A model generated the notes under the pieces. It was not told the origin of the DNA and ran no database searches. It saw only the letters and a list, made by a program, of their open reading frames with translations. Positions 3,138 to 12,885 of a stretch of 16,061 bases of DNA are shown piece by piece (the first letter of the stretch is position 1; each line of letters starts with the position of its first letter). This stretch comes from an uncultured Ruminococcus sp. (GTDB taxonomy: Bacteria; Bacillota; Clostridia; Oscillospirales; Ruminococcaceae). A program made the position numbers and the translations under genes. The stretch lies in assembly GCA_946612185.1 (NCBI GenBank), contig CAMOEP010000017.1, positions 1-16,061 on the forward strand. The letters are read 5' to 3'.

Positions 3138-5948
3138 ATGAAAAGAATGAAAAAAACTGCTGTAATGGCAATGACAGCCTGTATGCTGCTGTCAGCCGTT
3201 CCTGTGGCTGCAATGCAGACTATGGACACCGGTATCACCGCTTACGCCGGTGCAAACGATTTTTCCTGGAGTACCTACAAGAAGAAGGATACCTCATGGT
3301 GGTCAGGCAGCGAGGCTTTGGCTTACGGTGACGAGATCATCGCTTACCAGCTTTCCGACGGCGGCTGGCGCAAGGATATGAAAACCGAAACTACCGGCTC
3401 ATGGAACAAGTCCACTATCGACAACGATGCTACCTGGGGTCAGATCCGCTACCTGGCAAGACTTTATACCAATACCGGTATCGAGAAGTACAAGACCTCC
3501 TGCCTGAAAGCTATCGACCTGCTCCTTAATGGTCAGTACTCAAACGGCGGCTGGCCGCAGGTTTTCAATGACCCTGGAACTTATCATGCTCATATCACTT
3601 TCAACGACTCCGCAATGATCGAGGTCATGAAAATAATGCAGGACGCTGCTGCAAAGTCCGGCGACTTCGCTTTCATCGACAGCACCCGTCAGAGCAGAGC
3701 GCAAGCTGCCGTTGACAAGGGCGTGGAGTGTATACTGAAATGCCAGATAACCGTGAACGGCACTCTCACCGCATGGGGTCAGCAGCACGACGAAAATACC
3801 CTTGCCCCTGCCGGTGCGAGAGCATATGAGCTTCCCTCAATCTGCACCTCCGAAAGCGCCGGTATCGTTAACTTCCTGCGCATACTCCCCGATGAGAAGA
3901 AAACTCCTGCGGTAATACACAGCATAAATGCGGCTGTGCGCTGGTTCGATGCGGTAAAGATCGAGAATACCAAGTTCGACTGGAACTCCGACAAGACCGA
4001 TAAGCTGGTAACTTATTCCAGCGGCTCGACTATATGGGCAAGATTCTATGACCTGCAAAACAGCAAACCTATGTTCTCCGACCGTGACGGAAAGGTATAT
4101 ACCGACGTTTCACAGATAAGCCAGGAACGCCGCACTGGTTATTCCTGGTATGGTACATGGTGCGCTGAAAATATAAAGCTGGGTACTCTCCCCGAACCCT
4201 CTGAGCCTTCTCAGCCGGAACAGACTCAGGGTACTCATCTCTACGTCGGCTACAGCAACAAGTCCTCCAACTACAATACCGTTCAGGAGGCTGTCAATGC
4301 GGCTGCTGCACTTGCTCCCGCTTCGGAGGAACAGCGTGTGAATATCCACATCGCTCCCGGTACTTACCGTGAACAGGTAATAGTCAATACCCCGTTCATC
4401 AGCTTCATAAACGACGACCCCACCAGGGAAGTAAAACTTACCTGGTACTACGGCATCGGCTACAAGTACTACAGTATGGGCAGCGACGGCTACTATAATG
4501 CCGCCAGCGCCGCAAGCAAGTCCGCAAAGGGCGAGGCGGTGCGCTGGGGAAGTGCCGTTGCACTCAAGAAAAATGCTGACTATTTCCGTGCTGAGCATAT
4601 CACTTTCGAGAACTCATTCAACCGCTACATTACTGACGAGGAATTAGCTGACGGCGTTGAAGTTTCCGGAAGCCAGCCCATAACATTCCAGCGTACTAAG
4701 GGCGCTGACGTTACCACCAAGACCGCTACTGAACGTGCGGCTGCAATTGCAGTTGAAGGCGACTACAGCGAGTTCTTTGAGTGTACCTTCCTCGGCAGTC
4801 AGGACACTCTCTATGTGGGCAGCGAAGCCGGATATTTCCGTCAGTGCCATATCGTCGGCAATACCGACTACATCTTCGGTCAGGGCAATATGATATTCCA
4901 GGATTGTAACCTTGAATTCGCCGGATATCCCGACAAGGCTGTTGGCGGATACATCACCGCTATGAAAGACAGCGGCAAGACCCTGTTCTATAACTGCAGC
5001 GTAACAGCAGCAAGCGGCAAGCAGGTCGGCTCAGGTTTCTTCGGCAGACCATGGGGCGCTTCCGCTAATGTTGCATTCGTAAATACTTCTCTCCAGTACG
5101 AGAGTATCATCTCATCTGCCGGCTGGACTAAGATGAGCAGCAATGACCCGGCAAATGCTCAGTTCAAGGAGTATAATACTACTGCCGGCGGCAAAGCTGT
5201 CAATACCTCCGGACGTGTTGCAGGTACAGTGAAGTCCTCCGGAAACGGTCTTGATGTTACTACATACCTGGGCGGCTGGTCACCTTATTACCTGAATGGC
5301 TCTGCACCGGTAGTTCCTGTATATGATGCCATAGACGGCATTTACGTCAAGGCTCTCAAAGGCATAGAGCATCCTGATTCCTGGGACATCGACAGCGATA
5401 TCCAGATCGGTGATAAGATATATACTGACCGTGAGGTGATCTACGCCACCCTTCCACAGGAAGTTATCGGCGCTGAAGCGATAAAGATACCCTGCGACGC
5501 TAAGACTGCCAGCGGAAATATAGCTTCCTTTACCGCCGGTGAGGACATTAACGTATACGCCGCACTTGACACAAGATTGGAAAAAATTCCCGGCTGGATG
5601 TCCGACTGGACTGATACGGGGCTTCTCGCTTCCAATGACCAGTATGTTGATTATAAGCTGTTCTGCAAGAAGTTTTCTGCCGGTGACGTTATTACTCTCG
5701 GCGCTAACGGTCAGTCAGCCTACTGCGTGAACTACACAATTTTCGTCACTCCTGCAAAGCCTGCCGAGGTAAAGGGCGATGTGAACGATGACGGTCAGCT
5801 TGCTGCATCTGACCTGGTAGTGCTTCAGAAATGGCTTATGGCATTCCCCGACACTTCCCTCAATAACTGGGAAAATGCTGACCTTTGCAAGGACGGCAGG
5901 ATCGACGTATTCGATTTCGTGGAACTGAGAGAACTTCTCGGTCAGTAA
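3138..5948 (+). CDS. Secreted PL10 pectate lyase / CE8 pectin methylesterase with dockerin
   Basis: Bifunctional pectin-degrading enzyme, probably on a cellulosome. Residues 1-38 are a signal peptide. Residues about 40-345 match family PL10 pectate lyases (SDGGWRKD at 73-80, NGGWPQ at 136-141, YELPS at 230-234 followed by SES, RRTGYSWYG at 331-339), which cleave polygalacturonate by beta-elimination. An acidic Pro/Ser linker follows (351-365). Residues about 367-725 are a CE8 pectin methylesterase. By family homology Q555 and D556 (GSQDTL) and D577 (TDYIFG) are catalytic, and R637 and W639 (GRPW) bind substrate; all are present. Residues about 731-872 form a beta-rich accessory domain I cannot name. 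A dockerin occupies 879-936. Its second Ca loop has Cys917 where Asp or Asn is usual. The esterase would expose de-esterified galacturonan for the lyase in the same chain. The gene is monocistronic: own promoter, own terminator, convergent neighbour. Confidence 0.93.
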   Translation: MKRMKKTAVMAMTACMLLSAVPVAAMQTMDTGITAYAGANDFSWSTYKKKDTSWWSGSEALAYGDEIIAYQLSDGGWRKDMKTETTGSWNKSTIDNDATWGQIRYLARLYTNTGIEKYKTSCLKAIDLLLNGQYSNGGWPQVFNDPGTYHAHITFNDSAMIEVMKIMQDAAAKSGDFAFIDSTRQSRAQAAVDKGVECILKCQITVNGTLTAWGQQHDENTLAPAGARAYELPSICTSESAGIVNFLRILPDEKKTPAVIHSINAAVRWFDAVKIENTKFDWNSDKTDKLVTYSSGSTIWARFYDLQNSKPMFSDRDGKVYTDVSQISQERRTGYSWYGTWCAENIKLGTLPEPSEPSQPEQTQGTHLYVGYSNKSSNYNTVQEAVNAAAALAPASEEQRVNIHIAPGTYREQVIVNTPFISFINDDPTREVKLTWYYGIGYKYYSMGSDGYYNAASAASKSAKGEAVRWGSAVALKKNADYFRAEHITFENSFNRYITDEELADGVEVSGSQPITFQRTKGADVTTKTATERAAAIAVEGDYSEFFECTFLGSQDTLYVGSEAGYFRQCHIVGNTDYIFGQGNMIFQDCNLEFAGYPDKAVGGYITAMKDSGKTLFYNCSVTAASGKQVGSGFFGRPWGASANVAFVNTSLQYESIISSAGWTKMSSNDPANAQFKEYNTTAGGKAVNTSGRVAGTVKSSGNGLDVTTYLGGWSPYYLNGSAPVVPVYDAIDGIYVKALKGIEHPDSWDIDSDIQIGDKIYTDREVIYATLPQEVIGAEAIKIPCDAKTASGNIASFTAGEDINVYAALDTRLEKIPGWMSDWTDTGLLASNDQYVDYKLFCKKFSAGDVITLGANGQSAYCVNYTIFVTPAKPAEVKGDVNDDGQLAASDLVVLQKWLMAFPDTSLNNWENADLCKDGRIDVFDFVELRELLGQ

Positions 5949-7101: not shown

Positions 7102-7808
7102 TATTCGCCCTTGTCCCTGTATCTCAGCCACATTATGCCGTTGTCACACATTTCCGAGTAATGCGCCGCATACTCCCGGAATATACTCTCGCTGAACAGC
7201 GGCTTGTCGTCCTTGTCAGCGATAACGGGCGCAGTAACAAGGCTCAGTTCATCAACTGCATCTGCCCGGAAAAATGCGCCGTTGATAATGCTTCCGCCTT
7301 CGAGCATCAGCCGCTTTATGCCGAACAGACTGTAGAGTTTGCGAAGTGCTGCGGTGATATCTGTATCATTCCTGCCTGCGAATATATAGGATACTCCGAT
7401 ACTGCGGTAGTACGCCAGATTTTCCGCCGGAACGTCCTCCGTCAGTACCTCGATGATGTGGCAGTTATCGTAGCCCTCGTCCTCGTCGTGGATAAAGCCC
7501 TCAGTCCAGCCAACCAAGCCGTGGCGGTCAAAGGAAACAGCATAGTAATCATGGTTGCAGGCGATGAAGTCCTCATGTGGGATATCAGCACCGGAAAAGC
7601 CGGACAGGTCGGGCTTGAAACCGCCGGTAAAGCTTTCCTCCATAGTTACACGTCCGCAGGCGAACGCATCACCTTTCAGCTTGCGGTTGATATCGTAGTA
7701 CACCTCTGATGCAAGAATACCGGAATTGCTTCTGAGGAATTTGCCAGTGACCTTGCCGTCAATGGAAGTCACCATATGGCAGGTAACATAAGGCATATCG
7801 TTTTTCAT
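7101..7808 (-). CDS. RibD C-terminal / dihydrofolate-reductase-like protein
   Basis: A 235-residue protein of the RibD_C (DHFR-fold, NADPH-dependent reductase) family. Seen in the sequence: TSIDGKVTG near the N-terminus (14-22), CGRVTMEESF (51-60) as the nucleotide-binding strand-loop, and LEGGSIINGAFF (169-180) followed by DELSLVTAPVI (186-196), the classic C-terminal signature. It lacks the RibD deaminase domain and no other riboflavin gene is nearby, so it is better read as a stand-alone reductase of unknown substrate than as RibD. The start is the ATG at 7808, 8 bases after AGGAG; in-frame GTG and ATG codons upstream (to 7838) are worse placed. It is the first gene of a two-gene operon, and its stop overlaps the start of the flavodoxin gene, implying translational coupling. 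Confidence 0.85.
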   Translation of the reverse strand: MKNDMPYVTCHMVTSIDGKVTGKFLRSNSGILASEVYYDINRKLKGDAFACGRVTMEESFTGGFKPDLSGFSGADIPHEDFIACNHDYYAVSFDRHGLVGWTEGFIHDEDEGYDNCHIIEVLTEDVPAENLAYYRSIGVSYIFAGRNDTDITAALRKLYSLFGIKRLMLEGGSIINGAFFRADAVDELSLVTAPVIADKDDKPLFSESIFREYAAHYSEMCDNGIMWLRYRDKGE

Positions 7809-7828
7809 AGTCATCACTCCTTTTTCTA

Positions 7829-7857
7829 ATTTTACCACATATCCCCCCCAATTTCAA
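7829..7857 (-). promoter_or_regulatory. Promoter of the reductase-flavodoxin operon
   Basis: On the minus strand: TTGAAA (7857-7852), a 17-bp spacer containing seven G's, then TAAAAT (7834-7829). Transcription would start near 7822, close to the AGGAG site. The -35 box overlaps the first bases of the palindrome array (leftmost CAAGCTG dyad at 7855), so anything bound there would interfere with this promoter. Confidence 0.65.
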
Positions 7858-8554
7858 GCTGAGCCAGCTTGACCGCTTATCACGTTGTCGCTTGCTTACG
7901 CTCGCTCACATGGTAGAAACGGTGCTTTGTACGTCGCTCAACCGTGTTTCTACTGGTACAGAGTGCTATTCGGGGAATTTTGTAAATTTGCCATTTTAAA
8001 GTTCTACCGGAGAACTTTGTACCAAGCAAAATAAGGTTGAGCGACAAGCTGGAGCCAGCTTGACCGCTCCCACGTTGTCGCTTGCTTTCGCTCGCTTACT
8101 TTTTTAGAAACGGTGCTTTTGCCGTCGCTCAACCCGCTTTTCAATGGTACTACGTTCTCCGGAAGAATTGCAAAATATCAGCTTTTCAGAATTTTCCGAA
8201 TAGAACTTTGTACCATTGCAAACCAAGTTGAGCGACGGCAAAATGTGATGTTCTGTCAAAGTGAGCGACAAGCTGGAGCCAGCTTGACCGCCCCCACGTT
8301 GTCGCTTGCTTTCGCTCGCTTACCTTGACAGAAGCGGAACTTTTGCCGTCGCTCAACCGTGTTTTCCTCGGTACTACGGGCTATTCTAATATTTCTGGAA
8401 ACTGCCGCTTTATCATTCTACCGGTGAACTCTGTACCATTGTAAACTCAGTTGAGCGACGGCAAAATGTGATGTTCTATCAAAGTGAGCGAGTTCACGAG
8501 CGTCAACGTGATATGTGGTCAAGCTGACGCAGCTTGCAAGCTGGCTCAGCTTGA
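7854..8554. repeat. Tandem array of nested palindromes between divergent promoters
   Basis: About 700 bp without a credible gene. The ends are an 18-bp perfect inverted repeat (7854-7871 against 8537-8554). Inside are three tandem units starting at the CAAGCTG dyad: 7855-8044, 8045-8268 and 8269 to about 8491. Units 2 and 3 each contain 17-bp perfect arms, TTTTGCCGTCGCTCAAC and its complement (8117-8133 with 8227-8243; 8341-8357 with 8450-8466). Unit 1 has an 11-bp version (7933-7943 with 8035-8045). Further nested pairs lie within, such as CAATGGTAC/GTACCATTG at 8142-8150 and 8210-8218. Loops of the hairpins differ between units while the arms are conserved, which suggests selection or gene conversion on the arms. 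No spacer regularity as in CRISPR and no conserved frame. Confidence 0.85.
7855..8553. promoter_or_regulatory. Five CAAGCTG-N3/4-CAGCTTG dyads (candidate protein-binding sites)
   Basis: Copies at 7855-7871, 8045-8062, 8269-8286, 8520-8536 and 8537-8553. The two in the middle are the full 18-bp palindrome CAAGCTGGAGCCAGCTTG. One copy stands at the start of each array unit and two are back to back at the right end. The leftmost overlaps the -35 box of the minus-strand operon and the rightmost ends 8 bp before the -35 box of the plus-strand operon. Operator function is inference. Confidence 0.5.
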
Positions 8555-8561
8555 TGATATC

Positions 8562-8590
8562 TTTACAAAATGGTACAGAAATGTTATAAT
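8562..8590 (+). promoter_or_regulatory. Promoter of the 71-aa protein / glycerate kinase operon
   Basis: TTTACA (8562-8567), a 17-bp spacer and a consensus TATAAT (8585-8590). Transcription would start at about 8597, giving a leader of only about 13 bases that contains GAGGTG and little else. It lies directly beside the palindrome array. Confidence 0.75.
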
Positions 8591-8609
8591 TACCTCAGAG
8601 GTGATGCAC

Positions 8610-8825
8610 ATGAGCATTTTCAGAAAAAACGTGCCTGCTCCTATCCCTGAACCATTTTCCGCCAGCGACATTAAAATCGAATCAAGTACCTGCACCGGCG
8701 AGAAAACTATCGGATTCTTCGACAAAACTGCCAAGCGTCTGATGTTTGCCGAACTCGTTCGCTCGGAAAGTGATATCGCTAAATTCTACAAAAAATATGG
8801 CATCGAATATAAGGGTGATAAATAA
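8610..8825 (+). CDS. Small hypothetical protein, 71 aa
   Basis: Not recognised. It is a soluble-looking, slightly basic protein with a Pro-rich stretch at 9-15 (PAPIPEP), a single Cys (28), and a C-terminal amphipathic part rich in Lys, Glu and Tyr (51-71). There is no signal peptide or membrane helix. The start at 8610 is chosen because GAGGTG lies 6 bases before it and the promoter at 8562-8590 puts the mRNA 5' end near 8597. The longer in-frame reading from 8484 would start upstream of the promoter, inside the palindrome array. Its stop TAA overlaps the ATG of glycerate kinase (TAATG), so the two are probably translationally coupled and may be functionally linked. Confidence 0.7.
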   Translation: MSIFRKNVPAPIPEPFSASDIKIESSTCTGEKTIGFFDKTAKRLMFAELVRSESDIAKFYKKYGIEYKGDK

Positions 8826-10998: not shown

Positions 10999-11048
10999 GG
11001 CAACACCGCACAAAGACCGTCTGACGGCTCTGTGCGGTGTTTCCTTAA
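10999..11048. repeat. MITE-like palindromic element, short form (copy 2), possible bidirectional terminator
   Basis: A 46-bp interior (10999-11044) consisting of the first ~31 bp of copy 1 joined to its last ~15 bp, with one change in the right terminus (TTTCC for TTGCC). TTAA follows at 11045-11048 and holds the stop codon of the minus-strand dockerin gene. The 14-bp terminal stem with an inner CCGT/ACGG hairpin lies between two convergent genes, so it could stop transcription from both sides even though T tracts are poor. Confidence 0.75.
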
Positions 11049-12838
11049 TCAAAATTGATACCCTGCTCCTCAATGCTGTAAATAATGTCTACATCATCAG
11101 CGATAGCAGCGTCCTTATCCAGTTCTATCATTATGTGCCATGTTGCGATATTATCTGTGCGGGTTTCCGGTATGATACGCTTTATGCGGACAGCATCTTC
11201 GCAGACGTGGGTGACTTTGTGGCGGACTGAACCGCTAAACTCCTCAAACGCCACCAGCAGCAGCTTATGAGTATCGAACCACTTCGCTGTGTACTTCTCC
11301 GCTGCACCTGCAAAGCTGACCTCGTCGCTGTCGGAAAGGTGGTATATATCCTGGTTTTCCTCAATATAGCTGTCGAGTTCATCACGGGAGGTGATAACGT
11401 GCTTCTGCGGAAAACCTATGGGGTACTGCTTTCCTGTAATATTCGTGAGGACGTACTGGGCATCAAAATCATAACCCTCGATACCATAGCCGTACATTTT
11501 CTCTATCAGCATCTCTTTCATACGGTCGTAGTCAAAAACGGTAATACGGTTATCAAGGTCAAAGTCTGAATTCGCCCAGTTGTGAAGTTCTGCACCGGGA
11601 ACGCCCAGCAGCCACTTCTGCAAAATAACTATATCCGACATACTCAGAACTGCATCACCGTTCAGGTCGCCGTTTACATTGAGTTTCGTCCTGAAAACCA
11701 GGTCCATTGAACCGTTATCATAGAGAGTAACTTCCGGCTTATCCTCGCCAGTAAAACTGAATTGATCTGCTGACCTGTAAAGGTTTGCAAGGCTATCATC
11801 AAATTCGCAGGGATTAGTCTCCACGAAGTATATCGGGCCGGTGTAAGTCCAGCCAGTAGGTGTCTTAAAACCGATATCAGTTCCGAACATCCAGTTATGA
11901 TATTGCAGAACATCATTCGGTATCAGCTTGCCTGTGTCCTTATCATAAAGGGTAACTCTTGTTACGCCCGGAGCAAGGTCACATACCGGCTTCTTTTTCA
12001 GCTTGAATACCACATCAGCCGCACCATTTGAATACCGGGTGATCTGCTTGTAGTCACCTTGCAGCATATAGCCTTCCGGCAGACTTTTCTCGTTTACGTC
12101 CACGTCGAACTGGTCAGCATTTTTTATATCATGCTCCCAGAAAAAAGGGTTGTTATACGCTGTAAGTTCAATGTCCTCACTGATATTCTCGTTTTCGCCA
12201 TTGTATACAACAGTGGGGATAAGGGGAACTTTTTTAATGTCCACGAGTTCGCCGGTATCAACGTCGATAAAAGTTACCCGGATAACGTTCTCATTAAGAA
12301 CTTCTATCTCGTTCCAATCCACTATCTGTCCATTATACCTGGACTTTGGGACAGCAGCCTGCATCACATCGAAATTGAACGTCCTGCTTTGAGTACCCGA
12401 CACTGAGGAGGTGTAGTTTATCCTTATGGTATTATCCTCGATATATCCGTCCCTGTATTCATGGCCTGTTATCCTGCCGCTGTATGGCTCTGTATAGGCA
12501 TGGAGCAGGAGAACATTATCCGCAAAAAACTTATCGGTATACTTCTTGAGATACGGTAGGATACTCTCCTCAGTCAGGTACTCTTTCAGGAATGTGGACA
12601 GTTCCTCCTGAGAGGAAACTGCTGCCGACTTCAGTTCCACATCAGATATATTTGCCCAGGAAAAAGATATATCCGTAGAGAACAGACTGTATCTGTTATA
12701 GGAATACTCAATATTCTCCTGCACATCATCTACACCGTCATCGGCGTAAACATAACTGCTCTCAGGGAGCGCAATACTTTTTGGCACGACCATGCCAGTC
12801 ATCAGTGCCGCACTGACGATTGCTAAAAGTTTTTTCAT
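11045..12838 (-). CDS. Secreted protein with internal dockerin and duplicated flanking domain
   Basis: 597 residues from the ATG at 12838; an in-frame GTG at 12847 is possible, but GGTGA lies only about 5 bases upstream of the ATG and overlaps the GTG. Residues quoted are numbered from the GTG. A signal peptide spans 4-36. Domain A (about 73-170) and domain A' (about 483-595) look related: both start with SxxEL, continue with AEKYTAKWF/LKKYTDKFF, then LLLxA-E-SG and a late IR-I strand. Between them are two further repeats (about 188-285 and 296-388) sharing VT-DxDTG and NG-xD-VFK/R features. The dockerin sits at 391-447, not at the end: loop 1 D394/N396/D398/D405, loop 2 D428/D430/D432/D439. 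No catalytic domain is recognised, so its role on the cellulosome is unknown. It has its own promoter (12920-12948) and a palindromic element at each end. Confidence 0.85.
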   Translation of the reverse strand: MKKLLAIVSAALMTGMVVPKSIALPESSYVYADDGVDDVQENIEYSYNRYSLFSTDISFSWANISDVELKSAAVSSQEELSTFLKEYLTEESILPYLKKYTDKFFADNVLLLHAYTEPYSGRITGHEYRDGYIEDNTIRINYTSSVSGTQSRTFNFDVMQAAVPKSRYNGQIVDWNEIEVLNENVIRVTFIDVDTGELVDIKKVPLIPTVVYNGENENISEDIELTAYNNPFFWEHDIKNADQFDVDVNEKSLPEGYMLQGDYKQITRYSNGAADVVFKLKKKPVCDLAPGVTRVTLYDKDTGKLIPNDVLQYHNWMFGTDIGFKTPTGWTYTGPIYFVETNPCEFDDSLANLYRSADQFSFTGEDKPEVTLYDNGSMDLVFRTKLNVNGDLNGDAVLSMSDIVILQKWLLGVPGAELHNWANSDFDLDNRITVFDYDRMKEMLIEKMYGYGIEGYDFDAQYVLTNITGKQYPIGFPQKHVITSRDELDSYIEENQDIYHLSDSDEVSFAGAAEKYTAKWFDTHKLLLVAFEEFSGSVRHKVTHVCEDAVRIKRIIPETRTDNIATWHIMIELDKDAAIADDVDIIYSIEEQGINFD

Positions 12839-12885
12839 AATGTTCACCAGCTTTCATATTAATTGCAGAAGCCTGCTTTTTTTAA

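Follow-up and report, generated by a model that had tools for sequence, protein, structure and literature searches.

The palindrome-rich array at positions 7854 to 8554 of the window, by which we mean the whole 16,061-nucleotide stretch of an uncultured Ruminococcus genome that was analysed, is probably a cluster in which three units of a REP/REPIN-like repeat, reshuffled by recombination or template switching, stand in tandem. The repeat family is dispersed, non-coding and genus-specific, and it is built on a basic module of ~90 bp, a half-unit whose outer end carries a small hairpin (a dyad).

How might such a cluster arise? In the mechanism that we propose, halves would spread, now or formerly, as small mobile elements, with the hairpin being recognised in single-stranded form, by analogy with REPINs. 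Clustered halves would then be reshuffled by copy-to-copy exchange, and inversion or template switching between short invariant words may reshuffle them as well, a process that would retain the invariant words and a 2-bp pairing between dyad tip and tail and scramble the remainder. A bolder version is conceivable but unlikely; in it, the repeat is a hairpin-recognised, RAYT-less, genus-specific mobile element that docks at exact gene 3' ends (the CCA of tRNAs and tmRNA, and stop codons that it may itself supply), carries a tip-tail code, and has halves that continually recombine into palindromes selected against perfection.

The family adds to Ruminococcus a REP-like repeat with many copies, in many species and with no visible RAYT, and it can be used to test how REP-like repeats persist and spread without one. 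Its mosaic halves separate the parts that are kept (the invariant words and the tip-tail pairing) from the parts that are free, arm parts swapped between close relatives make palindrome-driven rearrangement measurable, and placement flush with the ends of tRNA, tmRNA and coding genes suggests a testable rule of targeting or tolerance.

Architecture of the array

Repeat searches and searches with a covariance model of the half-unit (R1, built from 25 halves) resolve the array into three head-to-tail units of a dispersed repeat, two of them truncated. The parts, with the two promoter-like sites that lie at the array's edges, are as follows.

7829 to 7857, minus strand: promoter-like site of the leftward reductase gene, a consensus match only (10/12), with its first hexamer overlapping the first array bases
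7855 to 7946, plus strand: left half-unit of unit 1 (R1, 80.3 bits, L001:1516-1607; also from repeats), with terminal dyad CAAGCTGAGCCAGCTTG at 7855-7871 and inner word GTCGCTCAAC at 7933-7942
7933 to 8045, no strand: core of unit 1, 113 bp, GTCGCTCAAC ... GTTGAGCGAC, from the core-pair search; the right arm ends after GTTGAGCGA, the junction being read from the sequence
8045 to 8137, plus strand: left half-unit of unit 2 (R1, 85.9 bits, L001:1706-1798), with dyad CAAGCTGGAGCCAGCTTG at 8045-8062
8124 to 8236, no strand: core of unit 2, 113 bp, enclosed by 17-bp perfect arms at 8117-8133 / 8227-8243
8227 to 8268, minus strand: right arm of unit 2, ending after GTGAGCGA without a dyad; a poor R1 match (24.6 bits, L001:1884-1947)
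8269 to 8361, plus strand: left half-unit of unit 3 (R1, 78.0 bits, L001:1930-2022), with dyad at 8269-8286
8348 to 8459, no strand: core of unit 3, 112 bp
8446 to 8536, minus strand: right half-unit of unit 3, complete (R1, 85.0 bits, L001:2107-2197), with dyad CAAGCTGCGTCAGCTTG on the minus strand at 8520-8536
8537 to 8554, no strand: additional terminal dyad, the perfect inverted partner of 7854-7871
8562 to 8590, plus strand: promoter-like site of the rightward genes, a consensus match only (11/12), just outside the array

The 17-bp perfect arms of units 2 and 3 (TTTTGCCGTCGCTCAAC / GTTGAGCGACGGCAAAA), the 11-bp arm of unit 1 (GTCGCTCAACC / GGTTGAGCGAC) and the 18-bp perfect outer inverted repeat (7854-7871 / 8537-8554), which is the terminal dyad of the repeat family at both ends, reproduce the nested palindromes described in the earlier note. 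Direct-repeat families with three copies in the array have spacings of ~191 and 224, and in unit 3 the D-slot allele of the right half is unlike that of the left half. The array folds far beyond chance (DNA z = -13.8, RNA z = -16.3), none of 20 shuffles being as stable in either case. The earlier statement that no gene explains the array is supported as well, and among the three explanations offered in that note, a pile-up of non-autonomous elements fares best, the family being genome-wide and the units tandem and truncated.

A half-unit module in the source genome and across the genus

The source genome (G000, with the window as contig C17) is a 2.61-Mb metagenome-assembled genome (MAG) of 433 contigs, 73.7% complete, in which 119 segments match the array and the inner arm word GTTGAGCGAC occurs 99 + 99 times, compared with 0 and 2 times for the reversed word as a control. 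Its fetched loci hold 59 core pairs (GTCGCTCAAC ... GTTGAGCGAC), mostly 111-114 bp long, 37 of which have both halves usable. In this species and in its sister, a complete unit consists of a half, a core of ~110 bp and an inverted half, together a ~270-bp imperfect palindrome.

Across the genus, R1 matches 79 of 125 genomes and 47 of the 68 good ones (E <= 0.01), with copy counts that are lower bounds, as ~34 candidates were scored per genome; the possibility raised earlier that the sequence occurs only here is thus false. A named near relative is Ruminococcus sp. RGIG9177. At E <= 1e-5, an even draw of 297 family genomes gives a single R1 match outside the genus, in G358, and a draw of 295 order genomes gives none outside it; each draw includes a few genus members. 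That one match is a strong half-unit (L341, 97.5 bits) in another genus of the family, either a transfer or a binning error. Searches of 50,697 phage and 72,556 plasmid records gave no match to the array, and a phage or plasmid origin was rejected.

All 20 loci read from three relatives (G010, G021 and G022) carry one ~90-bp half with no facing partner, two of them with a partial extra dyad in addition, and another genome (G107) has two halves in tandem. Because the half stands alone in these relatives, it, and not the inverted pair, is the basic unit.

The module has several variants. For example, two source loci (L068 at G000:C151:2127 and L057 at G000:C31:10831) and one sister locus (L164) have a hairpin GCCGCTTAGCGAGCGGC in place of the CAAGCTG dyad, followed by a normal CACGTTG part. 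Tandem sub-units of ~32-39 bp (dyad to CACGTTGnCGCT) with differing alleles flank a full half on its outer side at G000:C92 (L065), in the C41 region of the source genome, at L286 and L273 of the sister, and at L334 and L336; G021 has one extra sub-unit where G010 has none. A near-identical subfamily of halves (L321-L324, L326 and L330 in G022 and G010, and L087) has a second palindrome-rich repeat (..GGGATTCCAAAGGGACTGTGTTCCTTTGG..CAGAGGC..GCCTCTGG..) after it and AAATCA(G/T)AATTT before it, with several copies at contig ends. One of the two elements reported in G049 (L219) lies between ORFs that by eye resemble tyrosine integrases, which may place it on an integrated mobile element. All partial model matches inside contigs (9 in the source genome and 4 in the sister) retain the dyad end; we do not claim a retro-like truncation, because dyad-less arms also exist, in the window among other places, and are scored as poor full-length matches.

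MITEs, and modular repeats of the Correia, RUP and BOX kinds, resemble the Ruminococcus repeat in being short, non-coding and modular, with inverted ends and nesting. Could the family be a MITE, that is, terminal inverted repeats of ~78 bp plus a core, a ~270-bp unit mobilised by a transposase (DDE-type or other) whose gene lies elsewhere, and nested through repeated self-insertion? The two inverted halves around a core do form long inverted ends of the MITE type, the core is of near-constant length, and copies are found inside or beside other copies. We nevertheless consider a MITE improbable, since the half is the common form in the relatives read, no target duplication is visible at the sole empty site (where the element's right end is truncated), no parent transposon was seen, and among 60 model matches in 959 kb of the sister there are none of the widely spaced facing halves that an autonomous parent would present.

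Comparison with REP-like repeats and the search for a partner transposase

The REP, REPIN and BIME repeats and their RAYT transposases (PMC3116915, PMC3733652; see also PMC2817692) have much in common with the Ruminococcus repeat; both are high-copy extragenic hairpins that form inverted doublets around a spacer and tandem clusters, lie close to stop codons and have no coding content. The Ruminococcus repeat differs in having no GTAG or CGTC tag, its foot being GYGG then T in nearly all copies, and in its ~90-bp half-unit, its further invariant words and its 2-bp tip-tail pairing. Additionally, compensatory changes across the doublet are reported for REPINs, whereas none are seen in the arms studied here, and REP and REPIN repeats are linked to RAYTs, whereas no such link was found for this repeat. 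Since the tag is lacking, and neither a RAYT nor compensatory doublets were found, we describe the family as working in the manner of REPINs without calling it one; it resembles a distant relative of the REP/REPIN repeats.

No RAYT or other Y1 transposase (PF01797) was found in the source genome, as far as a 73.7% complete MAG extends; none of 30 Y1 loci carries a half-unit; Y1 genes and elements are not associated across the genus (29/41 vs 50/84, p = 0.24); and 15 of 28 high-copy genomes have no Y1 match at all. An IS200/IS605 or RAYT partner was rejected on these grounds. Inspection by eye of the ORFs around 11 loci in low-copy genomes revealed no recurrent partner gene beside the elements. 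A literature search returned no paper on a REP-like family in Ruminococcus, and the genus is not mentioned in the main texts searched, among them those of PMC12306157 and PMC8040213.

Invariant words and a two-base pairing

In 133 aligned halves of the source genome, invariant or nearly invariant words (CAGCTYGACC, CACGTTG, CGCT, CTCGCT, AGAA, TTT and GTCGCTCAAC) are separated by hypervariable slots with several discrete alleles. The earlier picture of conserved arms with variable tips therefore holds for the short words, which are kept, but not for the arms at large, as the slots lie within the arms themselves. Most slots of a half show weak linkage or none; the exceptions are neighbouring slots and, by far the strongest, a tip-tail pair (MI z = 28.4).

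The dinucleotide at the dyad tip is the Watson-Crick complement of the dinucleotide after ACC in 146 of 147 source contexts, 46 of 50 in the sister and 47 of 49 elsewhere (shuffled means 87.3, 26.6 and 43.2), with the types GC/GC, GT/AC, AC/GT, AT/AT and GG/CC. In the last set GC/GC accounts for 45 contexts and shuffling, at its maximum, likewise reaches 47; the evidence therefore comes from the source and sister sets only, and these share ancestry. The complementarity points to a pairing within the half, which may occur in RNA or in single-stranded DNA. RNAalifold on the half finds the 7-pair dyad and no conserved pairing beyond it. We considered that ACC might form a base triple with the dyad stem (ATC with AACTG) and dropped the idea, as copies with ATC and an unaltered stem were seen.

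Placement at gene ends

The module is often found at the ends of genes. In relatives, 34 of 48 genes on the dyad side have their 3' end towards the element, six of them at 0 nt, as do 27 of 49 on the inner side; these counts come from crude ORFs and ARAGORN genes, with two loci counted twice, some orthologous entries, two entries from the source genome and one probable false detection in L321. Halves directly follow the CCA ends of tRNA-Glu (L325), tRNA-Gln (L332) and tmRNA (L339) at 0 nt, and the end of tRNA-Glu is directly followed by a half in further genomes too. In the source genome, 33 mechanically called ORF ends within 60 nt of a cluster were classed by eye; the stop lies inside an element or dyad in 16, typically as AGC-TGA or CTG-TAG, within 2 nt of an element or hairpin in 11, and in neither position in 6. 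Does the element bring the stop codon with it? At the sister's empty site AGC TGA is already present at the gene end, so the element may either bring the stop or seek it out. For one gene, a search of 60 genomes on whether elements replace native stop codons gave, apart from the gene itself, 2 distant homologues, neither of them usable.

E. coli REPs are also often near stop codons, and those within 15 nt of one are reported to lower translation (PMC12306157). This report, together with the invariant words, the tip-tail pairing and the location at stop codons and at the ends of tRNA and tmRNA genes, would suit a functional 3'-end or structured RNA element, selected for its action on the transcripts that end there (their stability, or translation of the upstream gene) and not mainly selfish. 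Such an element is, however, quite improbable, as RNAalifold shows no conserved pairing beyond the dyad, Rfam has no match in the window at the gathering score, and positions 7700-8700 contain no intrinsic terminator (a G+C hairpin followed by a T-run). Additionally, the copies in the array adjoin the 5' sides of both neighbour genes, and of the 38 source clusters with an ORF on both sides, 12 lie between divergent ORFs, 21 between codirectional and 5 between convergent ones (24 further clusters are too close to contig or locus edges to be classed). With a relaxed Rfam threshold, weak, chance-like matches alone were obtained, with the microRNA names that any strong hairpin yields, and a known structured RNA was set aside.

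Arm parts swapped between sister species

The sister (G077) was compared over 959 kb, in which 13 of the 62 source clusters have both flanks; two of these (C9:5044 and C9:5413) fall in one region, and C31:7549 aligned poorly and was left out. One site is empty in the sister, at C6:7999, where the right end of the source element is truncated, the sister retains a dyad-like CAAGCTGACAGCGGCTTG, and no target duplication is visible. With one empty site only, and that one with a truncated end, a dyad-like remnant and no duplication, we infer movement from it together with the family's dispersal and its changing arrays. Examples of the latter are a cut-back copy at C335, half counts that differ between the species at C160, C31:10831 and C6:16478, and extra sub-units in the source genome at C92. 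Unaltered halves (identity 0.99-1.00) are found at C117:4037, C31:10831 and C6:16478.

At C92 the two arms are swapped between the species, with identities of 0.97 and 0.91 in the swapped alignment vs 0.74 and 0.73 in the parallel one; the core orientation is unchanged, and flank identity is 91 and 95%. At two further loci, C151 and C77, the sister's left half has an inner part that corresponds to the right half of the source genome; the reciprocal change is partial at C151 and absent at C77, which may mean that the exchange went one way. At C117 the arm type of one cluster in one species sits at the neighbouring cluster in the other, which suggests exchange between copies. Template switching between inverted repeats can invert the intervening segment and also homogenises the arms (PMC8604942), and it could yield swapped arm parts like these. 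The arms of the Ruminococcus repeat, by contrast, match below chance; moreover, the swapped blocks are tens of bp long, and alleles foreign to the orthologous unit also enter.

Could the mosaic arms and swaps largely be short-read assembly artefacts of a repeat family? Both genomes of the two-halved clade (the source and its sister) are MAGs in many fragments, with contigs that break off inside elements (e.g., G000:C1, C42 and C5, and several G077 contigs). The longest exact inverted match between the arms at C92, C151 and C77 is nevertheless 11-22 bp, so that a simple flip in assembly becomes less likely, the unique flanks align through, and random joins would break the tip-tail pairing, yet it is retained. 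We therefore regard an artefact as very improbable.

The long palindrome and its setting in the window

The left and right arms of a unit do not co-vary. Arms of the source genome match in 68 of 407 slots vs 94.5 (sd 7.4) when shuffled (37 units; 0.00005 of shuffles are as low), and arms of the sister in 16 of 110 vs 24.4 (sd 3.4) (10 units; 0.004 as low). Two of the 13 source slots are slightly and not significantly above expectation (columns 63-69, 6 vs 4.2; columns 1 and 15, 25 vs 23.9). Since elements are cut by contig ends and assembly may lose perfect palindromes, our claim is an absence of covariation, not an avoidance of matching arms. A long palindrome under compensatory selection was rejected, as the arms match less than shuffled in both sets, and the structural conservation proposed in the earlier note is not supported; that arms fail to co-vary in relatives is true of the long palindrome and false of the 2-bp tip-tail pairing within each half.

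The two promoter-like sites (2 found vs 0.9 expected by chance) flank the array and are directed away from it. None of 29 loci with related neighbour genes, 28 with the glycerate-kinase side and one with the reductase, carries a half-unit in the fetched DNA (regex detection, flanks up to 1.5 kb), and regulation of the flanking genes was rejected on this basis; the copies between the two divergent promoter-like sites probably have no dedicated role there. We give almost no credence to the earlier suggestion that the palindrome forms a cruciform with a regulatory or chromosome-organising role and is selected for its long-range fold; its very stable fold and its position between the promoter-like sites are outweighed by arms that match below shuffled, by the 0 of 29 loci and by the presence of half of the palindrome in the other genus genomes read, and no evidence supporting such a role was found.

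Elsewhere in the window, a small gene for 71 aa without a Pfam match lies ahead of the glycerate kinase (8610-8825), and the joint stretch is also kept in another genome (G025). Three dockerin-bearing proteins are encoded at 447-2786, 3138-5948 and 11045-12847, one with pectic acid lyase and pectinesterase domains and one BspA-like with DUF285 repeats.
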